Assembly (NCBI GenBank): GCA_032622095.1
Contig: CP136069.1
Location: 107,474,278-107,538,277, forward strand
Direction: 5' to 3'
Source of the DNA: Siphonodentalium dalli
Lineage: Eukaryota > Mollusca > Scaphopoda > Gadilida > Siphonodentaliidae
DNA length: 64,000 nucleotides
This document shows positions 24,743 to 32,433 of the stretch, in pieces (position 1 is the stretch's first letter; every line of letters begins with the position of its first letter). The translations under genes and the position numbers were made by a program. The notes under the pieces were generated by a model. It was not told the origin of the DNA. It made no database searches and saw nothing but the letters and a program-made list of their open reading frames with translations.

Positions 24743-25546
24743 TCTATACTATATATTTTGAGAAATCCGTATATATATATGTGTGACGTGTGTATATCTG
24801 TACTTCATAGAATCGAAAAAGGCTGGTCGGATCAAGCTCAAATTTCGTATATAAGTGTAAAAACCCACAAACACCGTAGTTGTCGCGTTTTGGAGAAGCT
24901 CAGAGCACCCGTTCTCCAATCTCAGTCACAAAAAACGGCACTGCGTTGGTTAATCAAGTTATAATTTAATGAGCGTTTGTTTTTGACGCATCGCTATAAT
25001 TCAACTTTATTAGCATCTGCAGAGAGATATACGGGAACAATACTTTTGAGTGGTTTCCTATGCGGGGAGATTTATTGGATGCCATAGTACTCTTACAACA
25101 TCATGTTATAGTATGTATGACACTTAGGTCAGGGCTTAGGGGGGGGGTAGTTAGTGTGGATATAGGCATAATGCTTCTCAGAAATCCCGGTTACAAACCA
25201 ACACTCACAATTTCGTCTTTTGCATCAGATACCAACACCTCGACCGATCGGGACGAAACTTGGTACATGAGTGTAGTTTGACCAGGTGGTCGTCGTTGTC
25301 GTATTGGCGAGCCCGTGCGACGCCCGTGCAGCGCATGCGCAGACGAGATCTCGGAAACGGGTGGAGCTATCGACTTGAAATTTGGTATGTGAATGTATCT
25401 TGTCCCCGGATACGAATTTTATAGGTTCGCCGAGCCCGTGCGACGCCACGGGCTCGGATGCGCAGACCAGATCTCGGAAACGGGTGGAGCTATCGACTTG
25501 AAATTTGGTTTTTGAATAGCCCGGACAACGTCGGGCTCATCGGCTA
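24743..25546 (+). mobile_element. Helitron-like element, second of three in tandem
   Basis: It starts TCTATACTATATATTTTGAG at the base after the first element's CTAG. Its 3' end repeats the AGCCCGGACAACGTCGGGCT hairpin and ends GGCTA. The first half matches the 8.8-kb Helitron and the second half matches the first tandem member, so it looks chimeric. Confidence 0.7.
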
Positions 25547-26233
25547 TCTATTATATATTTTGGAAGATCTGTGTGTGTGTGTGTGATCGCGATGAACTCG
25601 AAAACGGCCGAGCCGATTTCCATGAAACTGGGTAAGTGGGGGTACTTTCGGCCGGGGAGTGGCATAGGCCTATTAATTTTCCCATGCAACGTGACCTTGA
25701 CATCGGGTTATTTCAAGGTCAAACGCCCAAATATCAAGGGATTTCGATGAAACTTGGTATGTGGGGGTACTTTCGGCCGTGGAGTGGCATAGGCCTATTA
25801 ATTTGCCCGTGTGACCTGACCTTGACATCGGGTCATTTCAAGGTAAAATGCCCGAGTATCACAGGATTTCGATGAAAATTAGTGTCTAGGGATACTTTCG
25901 TATGGGGAGTCTCATAATCATATTCGTTTGCCCGTGCGACGTGACCTTGACATCAGGTCAATTCAAGGTCAAATTGCGAATTTTGATGGAATTTCCACCA
26001 AATTTGATACATAGGGTTACTTTTGTCCACTGAGTGTTTTTGACGGGTCAAATCGTGACCCCGACCTGACCTTCAAAATGATCAATTCAAGGTCAAATCG
26101 GGTAAAACCGGATGGATTTCGACGGGTACTTTTGTCCGGGTCAAATTGTGACCCCACCTGACGTTGACCTTCAAAATGGACAATTCAAGGTCAAATCGCG
26201 CAATTCGCAGAAAAGCAGAGGGGAATGGACAAT
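25547..26233 (+). mobile_element. Helitron-like element, third of three in tandem
   Basis: It begins TCTATTATATATTTTGGAAG directly after the second element and continues until host DNA resumes at TCAAATATAAAG (26234). A normal 3' hairpin with CTAG is not visible, so the right end is decayed or deleted. Confidence 0.6.
25580..26200 (+). repeat. Minisatellite, about 115-120-bp unit, five copies
   Basis: Units contain GATTTCGATGAAACTTGGTA, GTGGGGGTACTTTCGGCCG, GCCCGTGYGACSTGACCTTG and TTCAAGGTCAAA. TCAAGGTCA or its inverse occurs about seven times. Related to the array at 10.0-10.3 kb. Confidence 0.75.
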
Positions 26234-27075: not shown

Positions 27076-27600
27076 AAAAATCACATACTTGGGCGATATG
27101 TCCCAGGGGTCAATGCACGTGAAAATAGCAAGAAATCTTGAGGGCTCGGAAGTGCGGAGTCAATTGCATTTTTTAAAAACTCGTACTGGCCTATAACCTG
27201 GTCTGGCACATCCTGAATTCCGCTATTATAGCTATATTTGACTATTATAGTGGAATATGACTATATCATATTCATATTTTGTTTATTTGCGTTGGAAATA
27301 TGAGACGGCGCATGCCATTGCAGAGCCAGTTTTAGTTGTACGTGGTACTGAAGTGAACTGATATACTGCCGATAAAATTGGTTGTGCAGAGCGTTGCGCT
27401 GATGATATTTTAAGCTATCAAATTTTAAGTATACCTACTCAAATCCATAAAACATTCCTATTGAAGCAATTTCGAAAGAGAAGTTCTGTTGCGGATTTCA
27501 CCGATAGGTAGTCCCCCTGACGTAAGAAATCTCAATTGACTAATCAAAACATTTAATTCAATAAAATTAACACATTTAGGAATACCTACAACGTTTGTTT

Positions 27601-30161
27601 AAATGAAAGTGTCAATGACACTGTAGCTCAACTTGGAAAGGGAATAATTTAATATATTACAGTCAATGGAGCGATTAGGAATGTGGAAAGTTGAATGTCT
27701 AATACTAGTTTATAGACATGAAGAGAAAAGTAAAATCCAAGATGGCTGCTGGCGGCCATGTTTTCAGCCGAATGACCCAAAAATGAGTCGTTCCCAACTA
27801 CATGTCATCGTTAACATCAATGACAAATTTTATGACGATCAGACTAAAGGTACGACCTGTGGCCCGTGCTAATGGATTAAATTTTGAAATCCAAGATGGC
27901 CACTGGCGGCCATGTTTTTTGTCCGAATGACCCCGAAATCAGACTAAAGGTACGACCTGTAGCCCGTGGTAAAGGATTTAGTCATACAAAGAGTAAAATC
28001 CAAGTTGGCTGCTGGCGGCCATGTTTTTTGGCCAAATGACCCCAAAATGACTCGTTCCCATCTACATGTCATTATTAACATTCATGACAAATTTTATGAT
28101 GATCAGACTAAAGGTACAACCTGTAGCCCGTGCTAAAGGATTTAGTCATACAAAGAGTAAAATCCAAGATGGCTGCTGGCGACCATGGTTTTTGGCCGAT
28201 TGACCCCAAAATTACTCGTTCCCATCTACATGTCATTGTTAAGAACCATGACAAATTTTATGATGATCAGACTAAAGGTATGACCTGTAGCCCGTGCTAA
28301 AGAATTTAGTCTTACAAAGAGTAAAATCCAAGATGGCTGCTGGCGGCCATGTTTTTGGCCAAATGACCCCCAAAATTACTCGTTCCCATCTACATGTCAA
28401 TATTAACATCCATGACAAATTTCATGATGATCAGACGAACAGTGCGACCTGTGGCCCGTGCTAATGGATTAAATTTTGAAATCCAAGATGGCTGCTAGCG
28501 GCCATGTTTTTTGTCCGAATGACCCCAAAATGACTCGTTCCCATTTACATTCCAATTTCAACAGCCATGAAAAATTTTATGATGATCAGACTAAAGGTAC
28601 GACCTGTAGCCCGTGCTAAAGGATTTAGTCATACAAAGATTAAAATCCAAGATGGCTGCTGGCGGCCATGTTTTTCGGCCAAATGACCCCAAAAGTACTC
28701 GTTCCCATCTACATGTCAATATTAACATCCAAGACAAATTTCATGATGATCAGACGAACAGTACTAACTGTGGCCCGTGCTAATGGATTAAATTTTTAAA
28801 TGCAAGATGGCGGCTGGCGGCCATGTTTTTTGTCCGAATGACCCCAAAATGACTCGTTCCCATCTACATTCCAATTTCAACAGCCATGACAAATTTTATG
28901 ATGATCAGACAAAATGTACGACCTGTAGCCTGTGCTAAAGGATTTAGTCATACAAAGAGTAAAATCCAAGATGGCTGCTGGCGACCATGTTTTTTGGCCG
29001 AATGACCCCAAAAATACTCGTTCCCATCTACATGTCAATATTATCATCCATGACAAATTTCATGATGATCAGACAAACAGTACGACCTGTGGCCCGTGCT
29101 AATGGATTAAATTTTGAAATCCAAGATGGCCGCTGGCGGCCATGTTTTTTGTCCGAATGACCCCAAAATGACTCGTTCCCATCTACATTCCAATATCAAC
29201 AGCCATGACAAATTTTATGATGATCAGACTAAAGGTACGACCTGTAGCCCGTGCTAAAGGATTTAGTCATACAAAGAGTAAAATCCAAGATGGCTGCTGG
29301 CGGCCATGTTTTTTGGCCGAATGACCCCAAAATGACTCGTTCCCATCTACATGTGATTATTAACATTATTGACAAATTTTATGATGATCAGACTAAAAGT
29401 AGGACCTGTAGCCCGTGCTAAAGGATTTAGTCATGCAAAGAGTAAAATCCAAGACGGCTGCTGGCGGCCATGTTTTTTGGCCGAATGACCCCAAAATGAC
29501 TTGTTCCAATCTACATGTCATTGTTAACATCCATGACAAATTTTATGATGATCAGACTAAAGGTACGACCTGTAGCCCGTGCTAAAGAATTTAGTCATAC
29601 AAAGAGTAAAATCCAAGATGGCTGCTGGCGGCCATGTTTTTTGCCCGAATAACCCAAAAATGACTCATTCCCATCTACATGTCATTGTTAACATCCATGA
29701 CAAATTTTATGATGATCTGACTAAAGGTACGACCTGTAGCCCGTGCTAAAGGATTTAGTCATGCAAAGAGTAAAATCGAAGATGGCTGCTGGCGGCCATG
29801 TTTTTTGGCCGAATGACCCCAAAATTACTCGTTCCCATCTACATGTCAATATTAACATCCATGACAAATTTCATGACGATCAGACGAACAGTACGGCCTG
29901 TAGCCCGTGCTAATGGATTGAATTTTGAAATCTAAGATGGCCGCTAGCGGCCATGTTTTTTTTCCGAATGACCCCAAAATGAATCATTCCGGTACAAATG
30001 TTGATGTCAACAGCTATGACAAATTTCATAATGATCCGATCAAAGGTACGACCTGTAGCCTCTATTGTTGACGCCTTACGTACACACGCGCACACGCACA
30101 CACGTACGACGGACGACAAAGCCATGGCAATAGCTCAAACTTTACAAAGTAAAGTTGAGCT
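27601..30161 (+). mobile_element. Pearl/HINE-like element, family A, copy 3
   Basis: Ends AAATGAAAGTGTCAATGACA and AAAGTTGAGCTA flank about 15 monomers and an ACAC/ACGG stretch (30084-30117). The right inverted repeat of the enclosing transposon supplies the empty site GTTTGTTTTTAAAAAGTATG, which shows insertion within the T run. Confidence 0.85.
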
Positions 30162-30656
30162 AAAAAGTATGGAAAGCCGAATCGTTATGCGATATTATAT
30201 CTTCCACACCGCGGGAAATTCAAATAATTGACATGGATTTCGCATTTAAAGGTGAATTATCACATTAGTATTACTCATAGACGGACGTATGACGCTATAT
30301 GCGTTATAAATTAACTTTAATAGTTTTTTGTATTAAAAATTAGCTTGTTCAACAGTGGGAATTAATTTGGTACCATAGAATGAGCAAATCTGGAACCCTA
30401 TCATGTAACGCATCACGAGAATATATTATCTGTACAACATGTAAAAACTGGAATTTCTTATTTTACTATCCGAGCGAGCAACAAACATCTGTCAATCTAG
30501 TTGAAAAATCACTGATGGATATAGAAAAGATATATGATGTCATTCACCAGTGCTTAAAGTATAAACAACCAAGTCTGCCTGTGGCGCACTTGTGGTTGCT
30601 GAAGGTTCGTCCACACCAGCGGCGAGTATACCATCATCTCCTCACTCTGAGAGCAG

Positions 30657-30983
30657 TTGTTCCACTGCCAGCAGTGGTATATCTGCTGGTCTCATTTTGT
30701 CGACTACATCTCTACTCTACTTCGCCAAGTGCAGCACAAGTCGACAGCCACCCACAATGTTCTAGCGGGTGCAAATATTTGTACTCTCTGTTGCAAGCTC
30801 TACACAGAGGAGGATAACGCGGTTAATCTGTGGCTCGGTTGCGAGGTGTATATGGTCCTGAAATGTCCAAACCGGGCCCACGCAATCTGCGCAGGTATCG
30901 AAGGGGATGCGGAGAAAATAAAGGAATTCATTACTTTCAAATGTCCATTCCATAGGGGCGATCTCCAGGATCCAAGCAAATGA
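30657..30983 (+). pseudogene. PHD-like zinc-finger ORF inside the long-TIR transposon
   Basis: The C-terminal half of this 108-codon frame reads ICTLCCKLYTEEDNAVN, WLGCEV, KCPNRAHAICAGIE and FKCPFHRG. Cysteines and histidine follow C-x2-C, C, C-x4-H-x2-C, C-x2-H, close to a PHD (plant homeodomain) finger with the last Cys replaced by His. PHD fingers usually bind histone tails; several cut-and-paste transposases end in one, so I infer this was the tail of a transposon protein. Upstream, two other frames look coding in turn: SLMDIEKIYDVIHQCLKYKQ (30510-30570) and a Ser-rich linker with SSTPAASIPSSPHSESS (30608-30657). At least two frameshifts would be needed to join them. The stop lies just before a GTATGT donor-like site (30984). 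Confidence 0.5.
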
Positions 30984-31243
30984 GGTATGTATCTAATTTG
31001 CTAAAGTAATAAATTGCTAATTACAGGATAACTGTGGTGAATCTGTTATTGCAAATCCAAAACTTGCACTCAAACCATGTTTTACCCAATTGTGCTTTGT
31101 CGTTGTTGTTCGACGTATTTGTGACTTTGACAAGCTGACGCTGCGATGGGACCAGGGATTTGATTACTGTATTGTGCGAGACCCTGGTATCTGTTTCAAG
31201 TGTATTCACGAATAGTGCATTGAAATACTAATTTGATCATCTG

Positions 31244-31561
31244 TTGTTCACAAATTACTTTCTTTCAGCAGAAATCGAAGTTCCGATGGCCAAGTCAGAA
31301 TCTCCTGGGGGCAATGTTCTTGCGGTGGCACCTTCCACGTGCGTGGTTCCAGCGAGATGCAGAGGTGGTCGTGGTAGAGGTAAAGGTCGTGGTGCCGATA
31401 ATATTATGGATGAGCCAGGCAGGTCTGATGGCAATGTGCTTGCGGTGGCACTTGCTACATGTGCGGCTCCCACGAAAGGCAGGGGTAGTCGTGGTAGACA
31501 TAAAGGTCGTGATGGTAACAGATGTGCTAAAAAAGGACGGAGTCGCGGAAGTCAGGAATAG
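31244..31561 (+). CDS. RG-rich ORF of unknown function inside the long-TIR transposon
   Basis: An open frame of 105 codons has a polypyrimidine-AG acceptor-like site (TTTCTTTCAG) near its start (about 31269), so it may be a terminal exon. The peptide has two diverged repeats of about 36 residues, each with GNVLAVA, a Cys-containing TC.(V/A)(V/A)P, and an Arg/Gly-rich segment (RGGRGRGKGRG; RGSRGRHKGRDG), then KKGRSRGSQE. Such basic RG tracts usually bind RNA or DNA. No known domain is recognised. It could be the DNA-binding part of a transposon protein, or merely a GC-rich repeat that happens to be open; the antisense frame is also open. Low certainty. Confidence 0.35.
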   Translation: MFTNYFLSAEIEVPMAKSESPGGNVLAVAPSTCVVPARCRGGRGRGKGRGADNIMDEPGRSDGNVLAVALATCAAPTKGRGSRGRHKGRDGNRCAKKGRSRGSQE

Positions 31562-32433
31562 AATTGAATAAAATGTCAAGTGTTCAATCCGATGTTTGTG
31601 TCTGTCCCGTGTCACAATTGTCATTGTTTATGTTTCTTATGTAAAATAAGAAATTCCAGTTTTTACACGTTGTACAGATAATATATTCTCGTAATGCGTT
31701 ACATGATAAGGTTCCAGATTTGCTCATTCTATGGTACCAAATTAATTCCCACTGTTGAACAAGCTAATTTTTAATACACAAAACTATTAAAGTTAATTTA
31801 TATATATTATATAGCGTCATACGTCCATCTATGAGTAATACTAATGTGATAATTCAAATAGATTTCGTGCTAAATCACCTTTAAATGCGAAATCCATGTC
31901 AATTATTTGAATTTCCCGCGGTGTGGTAGAAATAATATCGCATAATGAATCGGCTTTCCATACTTTTTAAAAACAAACGTGGTAGGTATTCCTAAATGTG
32001 TTAATTTTATTGAATTAAATGTTTTGATTAGTCAATTGAGATTTCTTACGTCAGGGGGACTACCTATTGGTGAAATCCGCAACATAACTTCTCTTTCTAA
32101 ATTGCTTTAATAGGAATGTTTTATGGATTTAAGTAGGTATACTTAAATTTGATATCTTAAAATATCTTCAGTGCAACCAATTTTATCGACAGTACGTCAG
32201 TTCACTTCAGTACCACGTACACTTAAAACTGGCTCTGCAATGGCATGCGCCGTCTCATATTTCCAACGCAAATAAACAAAACATGAATATGATATAGTCA
32301 TATTCCACTATAATAGTCAAATATAGCTATAATAGAGGAATTCAGGATGTGCCAGACCTGATAACAAATCTTCTGAAATTTATTTTTTCTCAAACTAGAC
32401 CAATAGCCGCCTCGATCCAAGATTATAACTTAC

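Follow-up and report, generated by a model that had tools for sequence, protein, structure and literature searches.

The window analysed here is a 64,000-nt stretch of the genome of the scaphopod Siphonodentalium dalli (C9:107474278-107538277 in a 2.2-Gb genome). It contains a transposon that is bounded by near-identical inverted arms and flanked on either side by a copy of ATAAC (Table 1). The preliminary description of this locus had proposed inverted repeats of about 710-720 bp, a likely ATAAC duplication, and a 1.2-kb interior with a C4-H-C-C-H finger and an RG-rich peptide. All three were found, with the left arm split in two by a foreign insertion; when gaps are counted, identity to the right arm is 93% for one of its pieces and 89% for the other. 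As this nested element accounts for 2.55 kb, the transposon proper comprises about 2.6 kb. The interior includes one open reading frame (ORF) with the finger spacing (30651-30983) and another with the RG-rich repeat (31232-31561), which would represent the two exons of a single accessory gene. In our view, the element is very probably a foldback-like, non-autonomous form derived from a cut-and-paste parent with a transposase-like gene and an antisense PHD/RG gene, and was very probably mobilised in trans.

Table 1 Features of the transposon in the window. Positions are those of the 64,000-nt stretch.
Feature	Position	Strand or orientation	Remarks
Transposon including nested insertion	27198-32360
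Left target site duplication copy	27193-27197	.	ATAAC
Left arm, outer part	27198-27610	+	~413 bp
Terminal ~78 bp	27198-27277	+	also present at either end of the long copy with the transposase; putative functional terminal inverted repeat
Nested insertion	27611-30161	.	foreign to the transposon; boundaries within a few bases
Left arm, inner part	30162-30466	+	~305 bp; separated from the outer part by the nested insertion
Interior of the non-autonomous element	30467-31640	+	1174 bp
PHD-like ORF (C4-H-C-C-H), exon 1 of accessory gene	30651-30983	+
Probable intron of accessory gene	30985-31268	+	GTATGT...TTTCAG, phase 1; predicted from alignment
RG-rich exon 2 of accessory gene	31269-31561	+
Right arm	31641-32360	-	720 bp; corresponds to the long copy's arm on the transposase 5' side
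Right target site duplication copy	32361-32365	.	ATAAC
Arm pair block	27200-27384/32174-32358	inverted	185 nt, 96%
Arm pair block	27421-27600/31971-32150	inverted	180 nt, 96%
Arm pair block	30161-30263/31867-31969	inverted	94%
Arm pair block	30253-30300/31809-31856	inverted	98%
Arm pair block	30305-30466/31641-31802	inverted	162 nt, 98%

Both the arm and the interior recur in the genome far beyond chance. A search with the arm returned at least 54 matches (40 of 3208 candidates scored) and one with the interior at least 46 (40 of 491 candidates scored), the best other copy listed being 92% identical over the full length. Twenty copy regions were fetched, and both tips were present in 13 of them as well as in the window; together with the long copy L048+L056 described below, this gave 15 elements. 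Three of these (L034, L039 and L040, all on C8) have their flanks and duplication in common and are therefore a segmental duplication, not separate insertions, so that L039 and L040 were left out of the count of target site duplications (TSDs). The 5-bp duplication seen at the window copy holds in the other copies: it is perfect in all 13 independent two-ended elements, and a duplication of 4 bp or 6 bp never occurred. When the pairing of the flanks was shuffled, a mean of 1.48 and a maximum of 6 of the 13 elements scored. Reading inward, the ends begin with CAGGTC in 28 of 30 cases, the two deviants being the left ends of the window copy (CTGGTC) and of L040 (CCGGTC). With terminal inverted repeats (TIRs) and a TSD of fixed length, the element has the end structure of a TIR cut-and-paste DNA transposon. 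The tip of about 77 bp reads CAGGTCTGGCACATCCTG; it harbours an imperfect palindrome (window 27217-27256), and folding of the ~78-bp tip beats 197 of 200 shuffles (z -2.4).

Two copies, L048 and L047, are longer. Their PHD/RG module is 83% and 86% identical, respectively, to that of the window (30597-31638 within the interior), and they have flanking ORFs that are absent from the window. One of them, L048+L056, was read from end to end (C8:144411077-144418502); it is 7426 bp long and flanked by TTTAC on both sides, and its inverted repeats span 77 bp at 96% identity. The full 720-bp arm is present at the end nearest to the N-terminus of the transposase, and about 78 bp of the arm at the other end. 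The second long copy, L047, is 89% identical to the 3' end of L048 over 553 bp, including 73 bp of the tip; its other tip was sought and not found. The longer copies have the tip, the one-sided long arm and the PHD/RG module in common with the window element, and transposase-like exons in addition. This supports the earlier suggestion that the latter may have arisen by deletion from a larger element. Because L048+L056 has 77-bp TIRs and a long arm on one side, the arms of ~715 bp in the window look derived, as a later symmetrical arrangement; this reading draws on one copy followed to both ends (L048+L056) and one followed to a single end (L047). The alternative, that the long arms represent the ancestral TIR, was not borne out by L048+L056, the sole long copy read to both ends. 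Beside the long copy in L047 (3-602), there are ORFs that by eye resemble a non-LTR retrotransposon endonuclease.

Using tblastn, pieces of the transposase-like protein were identified in L047, L048, L053 and L028, and its C-terminal piece alone in the sequenced parts examined of L027 and L052. Alignments of the core revealed the conserved motifs DNNQV and GDG, a C2H2 finger about 17 residues after GDG, and GxGHxEM and GGDFILE; these motifs probably supply the catalytic D, D and E of a DDE-type transposase. In L048, the D, D and E-like motifs lie inside the element as defined from tip to tip. When the whole genome was searched with the core, 140 of 385 candidates were scored and at least 149 matches obtained; identities went down to 32%, and open frames reached 765 amino acids (aa) among the core matches listed. 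The transposase pieces of L055 and L054 are about 35-50% identical, with one 26-aa stretch at 81%. In profile searches against the PDB, the catalytic part matched C2H2 fingers, with a best E of 0.0043, and otherwise gave weak matches to unrelated chains; matches of the N-terminal part were likewise unrelated. Among viral contigs searched for relatives, 80 stretches fit the pattern and none was confirmed. For comparison with Pfam, we scanned 18 of the 19 ORFs of at least 90 aa in the L048 element and selected ORFs of L053, L054, L055, L047, L052 and L028. Two of the seven members of the core alignment gave weak matches to DUF6589, a family of unknown function, and these are non-overlapping and colinear (profile positions 134-229 in L055 and 281-366 in L054). 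We keep DUF6589 as a weak lead to the family of the transposase. DUF6589 itself has 90 matches above the cut-off in this genome and none in 14 control genomes, and is possibly also a mobile family.

In the longer copies, the PHD/RG module lies antisense to the transposase-like gene, between the exon with the E motif and the C-terminal exon. The idea that the finger might form the C-terminus of a transposase is ruled out, as the PHD ORF is on the opposite strand; it belongs to a separate antisense gene. A comparable arrangement was found beside a distant transposase relative: in L055, an antisense ORF of 316 aa occupies the same place and ends with a PHD-like finger and an RG tail. Homology links the PHD protein of L055 to that of L048 (38% identity over 77 aa, E 5e-11), which argues against the interior being a once-captured piece of host sequence, an outcome that the preliminary description had considered. 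The best PDB profile matches of the L055 protein were chains of KMT2C (E 0.0079) and KDM5B (E 0.028), which we read as the PHD fingers of these proteins. A genome-wide search with the L055 protein returned at least 128 matches (126 of 5268 candidates scored). Residues 1-47 of this query, the N-terminal part of the PHD ORF (L055 2038-2985), match a dispersed repeat with many genome copies. After 98 rows within the first 134 query residues were dropped and pieces were merged, 27 PHD loci were obtained. A transposase core is present within 4 kb at 19 of these, and at all 19 the PHD locus is antisense to the core and downstream of it; at 10 of the 19 it lies between the core and the C-terminal exon. 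Thus, antisense PHD pairing recurs in divergent families of this genome. Splice-like sites are consistent with a transposase intron spanning the module, with AG/GTGAGC in L054 on the 5' side and ...TTTCAG/ (L055) and ...TTCTAG/ (L047) on the 3' side.

Several points weigh against this interpretation. No transposase family of Pfam was matched among the ORFs scanned, and the PHD matches, both of the window ORF and of its homologues, all stayed below the Pfam cut-offs. The DUF6589 matches scored 20.2 and 20.1 bits against a cut-off of 27; comparison of profiles with one strong DUF6589 protein of the genome gave no significant match (E 0.47), and not one DUF6589 place out of 90 came within 24 kb of the transposase places (117 of the 149 rows compared). 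The longer copies examined carry stops or frame breaks, and a single long copy could be read to both ends. No core was present within 4 kb of the other 8 of the 27 PHD loci, one of which has a C-terminal exon and seven of which have neither. The 5' splice-like site reads GTTAGA in L047, L048, L053 and L028, and the 3' site of L047 is altered in L053. Finally, exon 2 of the accessory gene showed no clear constraint, with ratios of nonsynonymous to synonymous substitution rates (dN/dS) of 0.5-1.92 in cross-lineage pairs and of 0.94 and 5.25 in close pairs, and frames in the intron ranged from about 0.3 to 6, with cross-lineage pairs starting from 0.51. On the supporting side, the values for exon 1 were 0.26-0.45 across eight mutually dependent cross-lineage pairs; two close pairs had 0.72 and 0.68. 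Judged by these substitution patterns, constraint is modestly suggested for the PHD part only, and this evidence of selection is modest since exon 2 lacks clear constraint and the intron frames of the cross-lineage pairs already start at 0.51.

Taken together, the parent would encode a multi-exon DDE-type transposase-like protein and, on the opposite strand and downstream of the catalytic part, a two-exon protein with a PHD finger and an RG tail, whose gene in the close family would sit between the catalytic part and the C-terminal exon. The transposase would act in trans on the ~77-bp tips and excise the element, which would then be reinserted with a 5-bp stagger. In the lineage leading to the window copy, the transposase exons may have been lost and the arm from the transposase 5' end may have come to lie on either side of the PHD/RG module in inverted orientation, whereupon this foldback form would have spread. 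The copies compared here show a likely route from an element with 77-bp TIRs to a foldback element with 700-bp arms. By analogy of layout to RAG2 in RAG-like transposons (PMC7204232), the most plausible role for the PHD/RG protein is that of a partner of the transposase that faces chromatin; it might read chromatin, bind nucleic acids and steer or regulate the transposase.

The window copy most likely moved in trans by the transposase of a relative and is now a dead passenger: a stop codon immediately precedes the splice-like site of its PHD exon, and its arm has received the insertion of another element. This nested element of 2.55 kb consists of 155/164-bp tandem units between 11-bp inverted ends (TAGCTCAACTT/AAGTTGAGCTA), and we take it to resemble the bivalve pearl/CvE-type relatives of Helentrons. 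As pieces of about 320 bp are 99-100% identical at no fewer than 11 other places, it was active recently. About 100 bp of the transposon interior (window 30493-30600) match many dispersed repeats at 84-86%, so that the left edge of the interior is itself pieced together. To the left of the transposon (window 25308-26203), there are short tandem families with TGACCTTGACATC-like units.

The reading that competes best concerns the name and leaves the anatomy as it is: the parent may belong to the Academ superfamily, with the 5-bp TSD and the PHD gene as a lineage variant. We regard this as a tentative possibility. Academ elements have TSDs of 3-4 bp and encode an XPG nuclease or, in AcademH, a helicase. 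The TSD measures 5 bp in all 13 elements here, and an XPG or helicase match was absent from the ORFs scanned. In its favour, the transposase described here is abundant in a genome that, judged by the style of its repeats, may be bivalve-like, and Academ likewise comprises long DDE elements, in its case expanded in bivalves: an HMM (hidden Markov model)-based survey ranks Academ third among DDE superfamilies by number of ORFs, after TcMar and hAT, and gives 100 curated bivalve families with a mean length of 5565 bp (PMC10294476). The transposase may already be filed under Academ in bivalve libraries.

It is unlikely that the parent is instead a RAG-like (RAGL)/Transib or other CMCT transposon, with a RAG1L-type transposase and a RAG2L-type PHD partner. 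CMCT elements (CACTA/EnSpm, Mirage, Chapaev, Transib, Plavaka) are described as mostly ending in CA..TG, with TSDs of 2-5 bp and with C(2)C following the second D (PMC12730594), and our elements fit in their termini, TSD length and CxxC. For RAGL transposons, the TSD is given as 5 bp and the second gene as convergent and bearing a PHD finger (PMC7204232). However, the HxxxxH here directly follows the CxxC as part of a C2H2 finger and is not placed near the last E, and the ends begin with CAGG rather than CAC. The ORFs scanned matched none of the CMCT families of Pfam, nor RAG1 or kelch at E values of up to 1 or 5, and PDB profile searches of the transposase parts returned no RAG1 or Transib chains at E values of up to 10.

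A different question is whether the foldback form is a mere passenger. Both arms match the region at the 5' end of the transposase, so that a transcript running through both would form double-stranded RNA with the parent's sequence, and such a hairpin of the promoter-side region might silence it. Repair can also generate inverted arms as a neutral side effect, and we consider a silencing function quite improbable. Many host proteins have PHD fingers or RG tails and non-autonomous elements often capture gene pieces, yet it is highly improbable that a transposon whose ends are unrelated to the interior acquired the latter from a host gene, given homologous PHD ORFs antisense downstream of the core at 19 loci in divergent families; on this layout, we reject a one-off capture of a host gene.

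Returning to the parent as a cut-and-paste element with an antisense PHD/RG gene, we put forward with reserve that the parents constitute an unnamed DDE superfamily, perhaps distantly related to DUF6589, in which transposase and antisense PHD/RG gene would have been kept together across diverged families as an independent counterpart of RAG1/RAG2. The element was not described in the literature searched, which did not cover Repbase and so gives no proof of novelty, and DUF6589 occurred in no paper found. The likeness to DUF6589 proteins consists of the two weak colinear matches; these fall below the curated cut-off, and the DUF6589 places lie apart from the transposase places compared. A TSD of 5 bp is also reported for hAT5 (PMC12730594), of which our elements differ in that no hAT family of Pfam was matched by the ORFs scanned. 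If the proposed pairing is true, a large family for which Pfam offers no nearer name than 'unknown function' would acquire a meaning. The interest rests on the conserved antisense PHD pairing and not on the window copy.

The nearest parallel in layout is provided by the RAG-like transposons, which likewise combine a 5-bp TSD, a transposase gene and an oppositely oriented gene bearing a PHD finger; in the account of protostome RAGL elements, too, the second gene carries such a finger (PMC7204232). Unlike in RAGL, no similarity to RAG1 and no kelch propeller was found among the ORFs scanned. The second gene described here encodes a PHD-like finger with an RG-rich tail instead of the combination of kelch and PHD, and in the close family it lies between the exons of the transposase. 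The layout thus seems to recall the ancestor of the RAG1/RAG2 recombinase, yet to be built from different proteins. A second, non-RAG antisense pairing of transposase and PHD protein would, if true, make the pairing with a histone reader a recurring solution among cut-and-paste transposons, which could be tested by insertion sites and by partner dependence.

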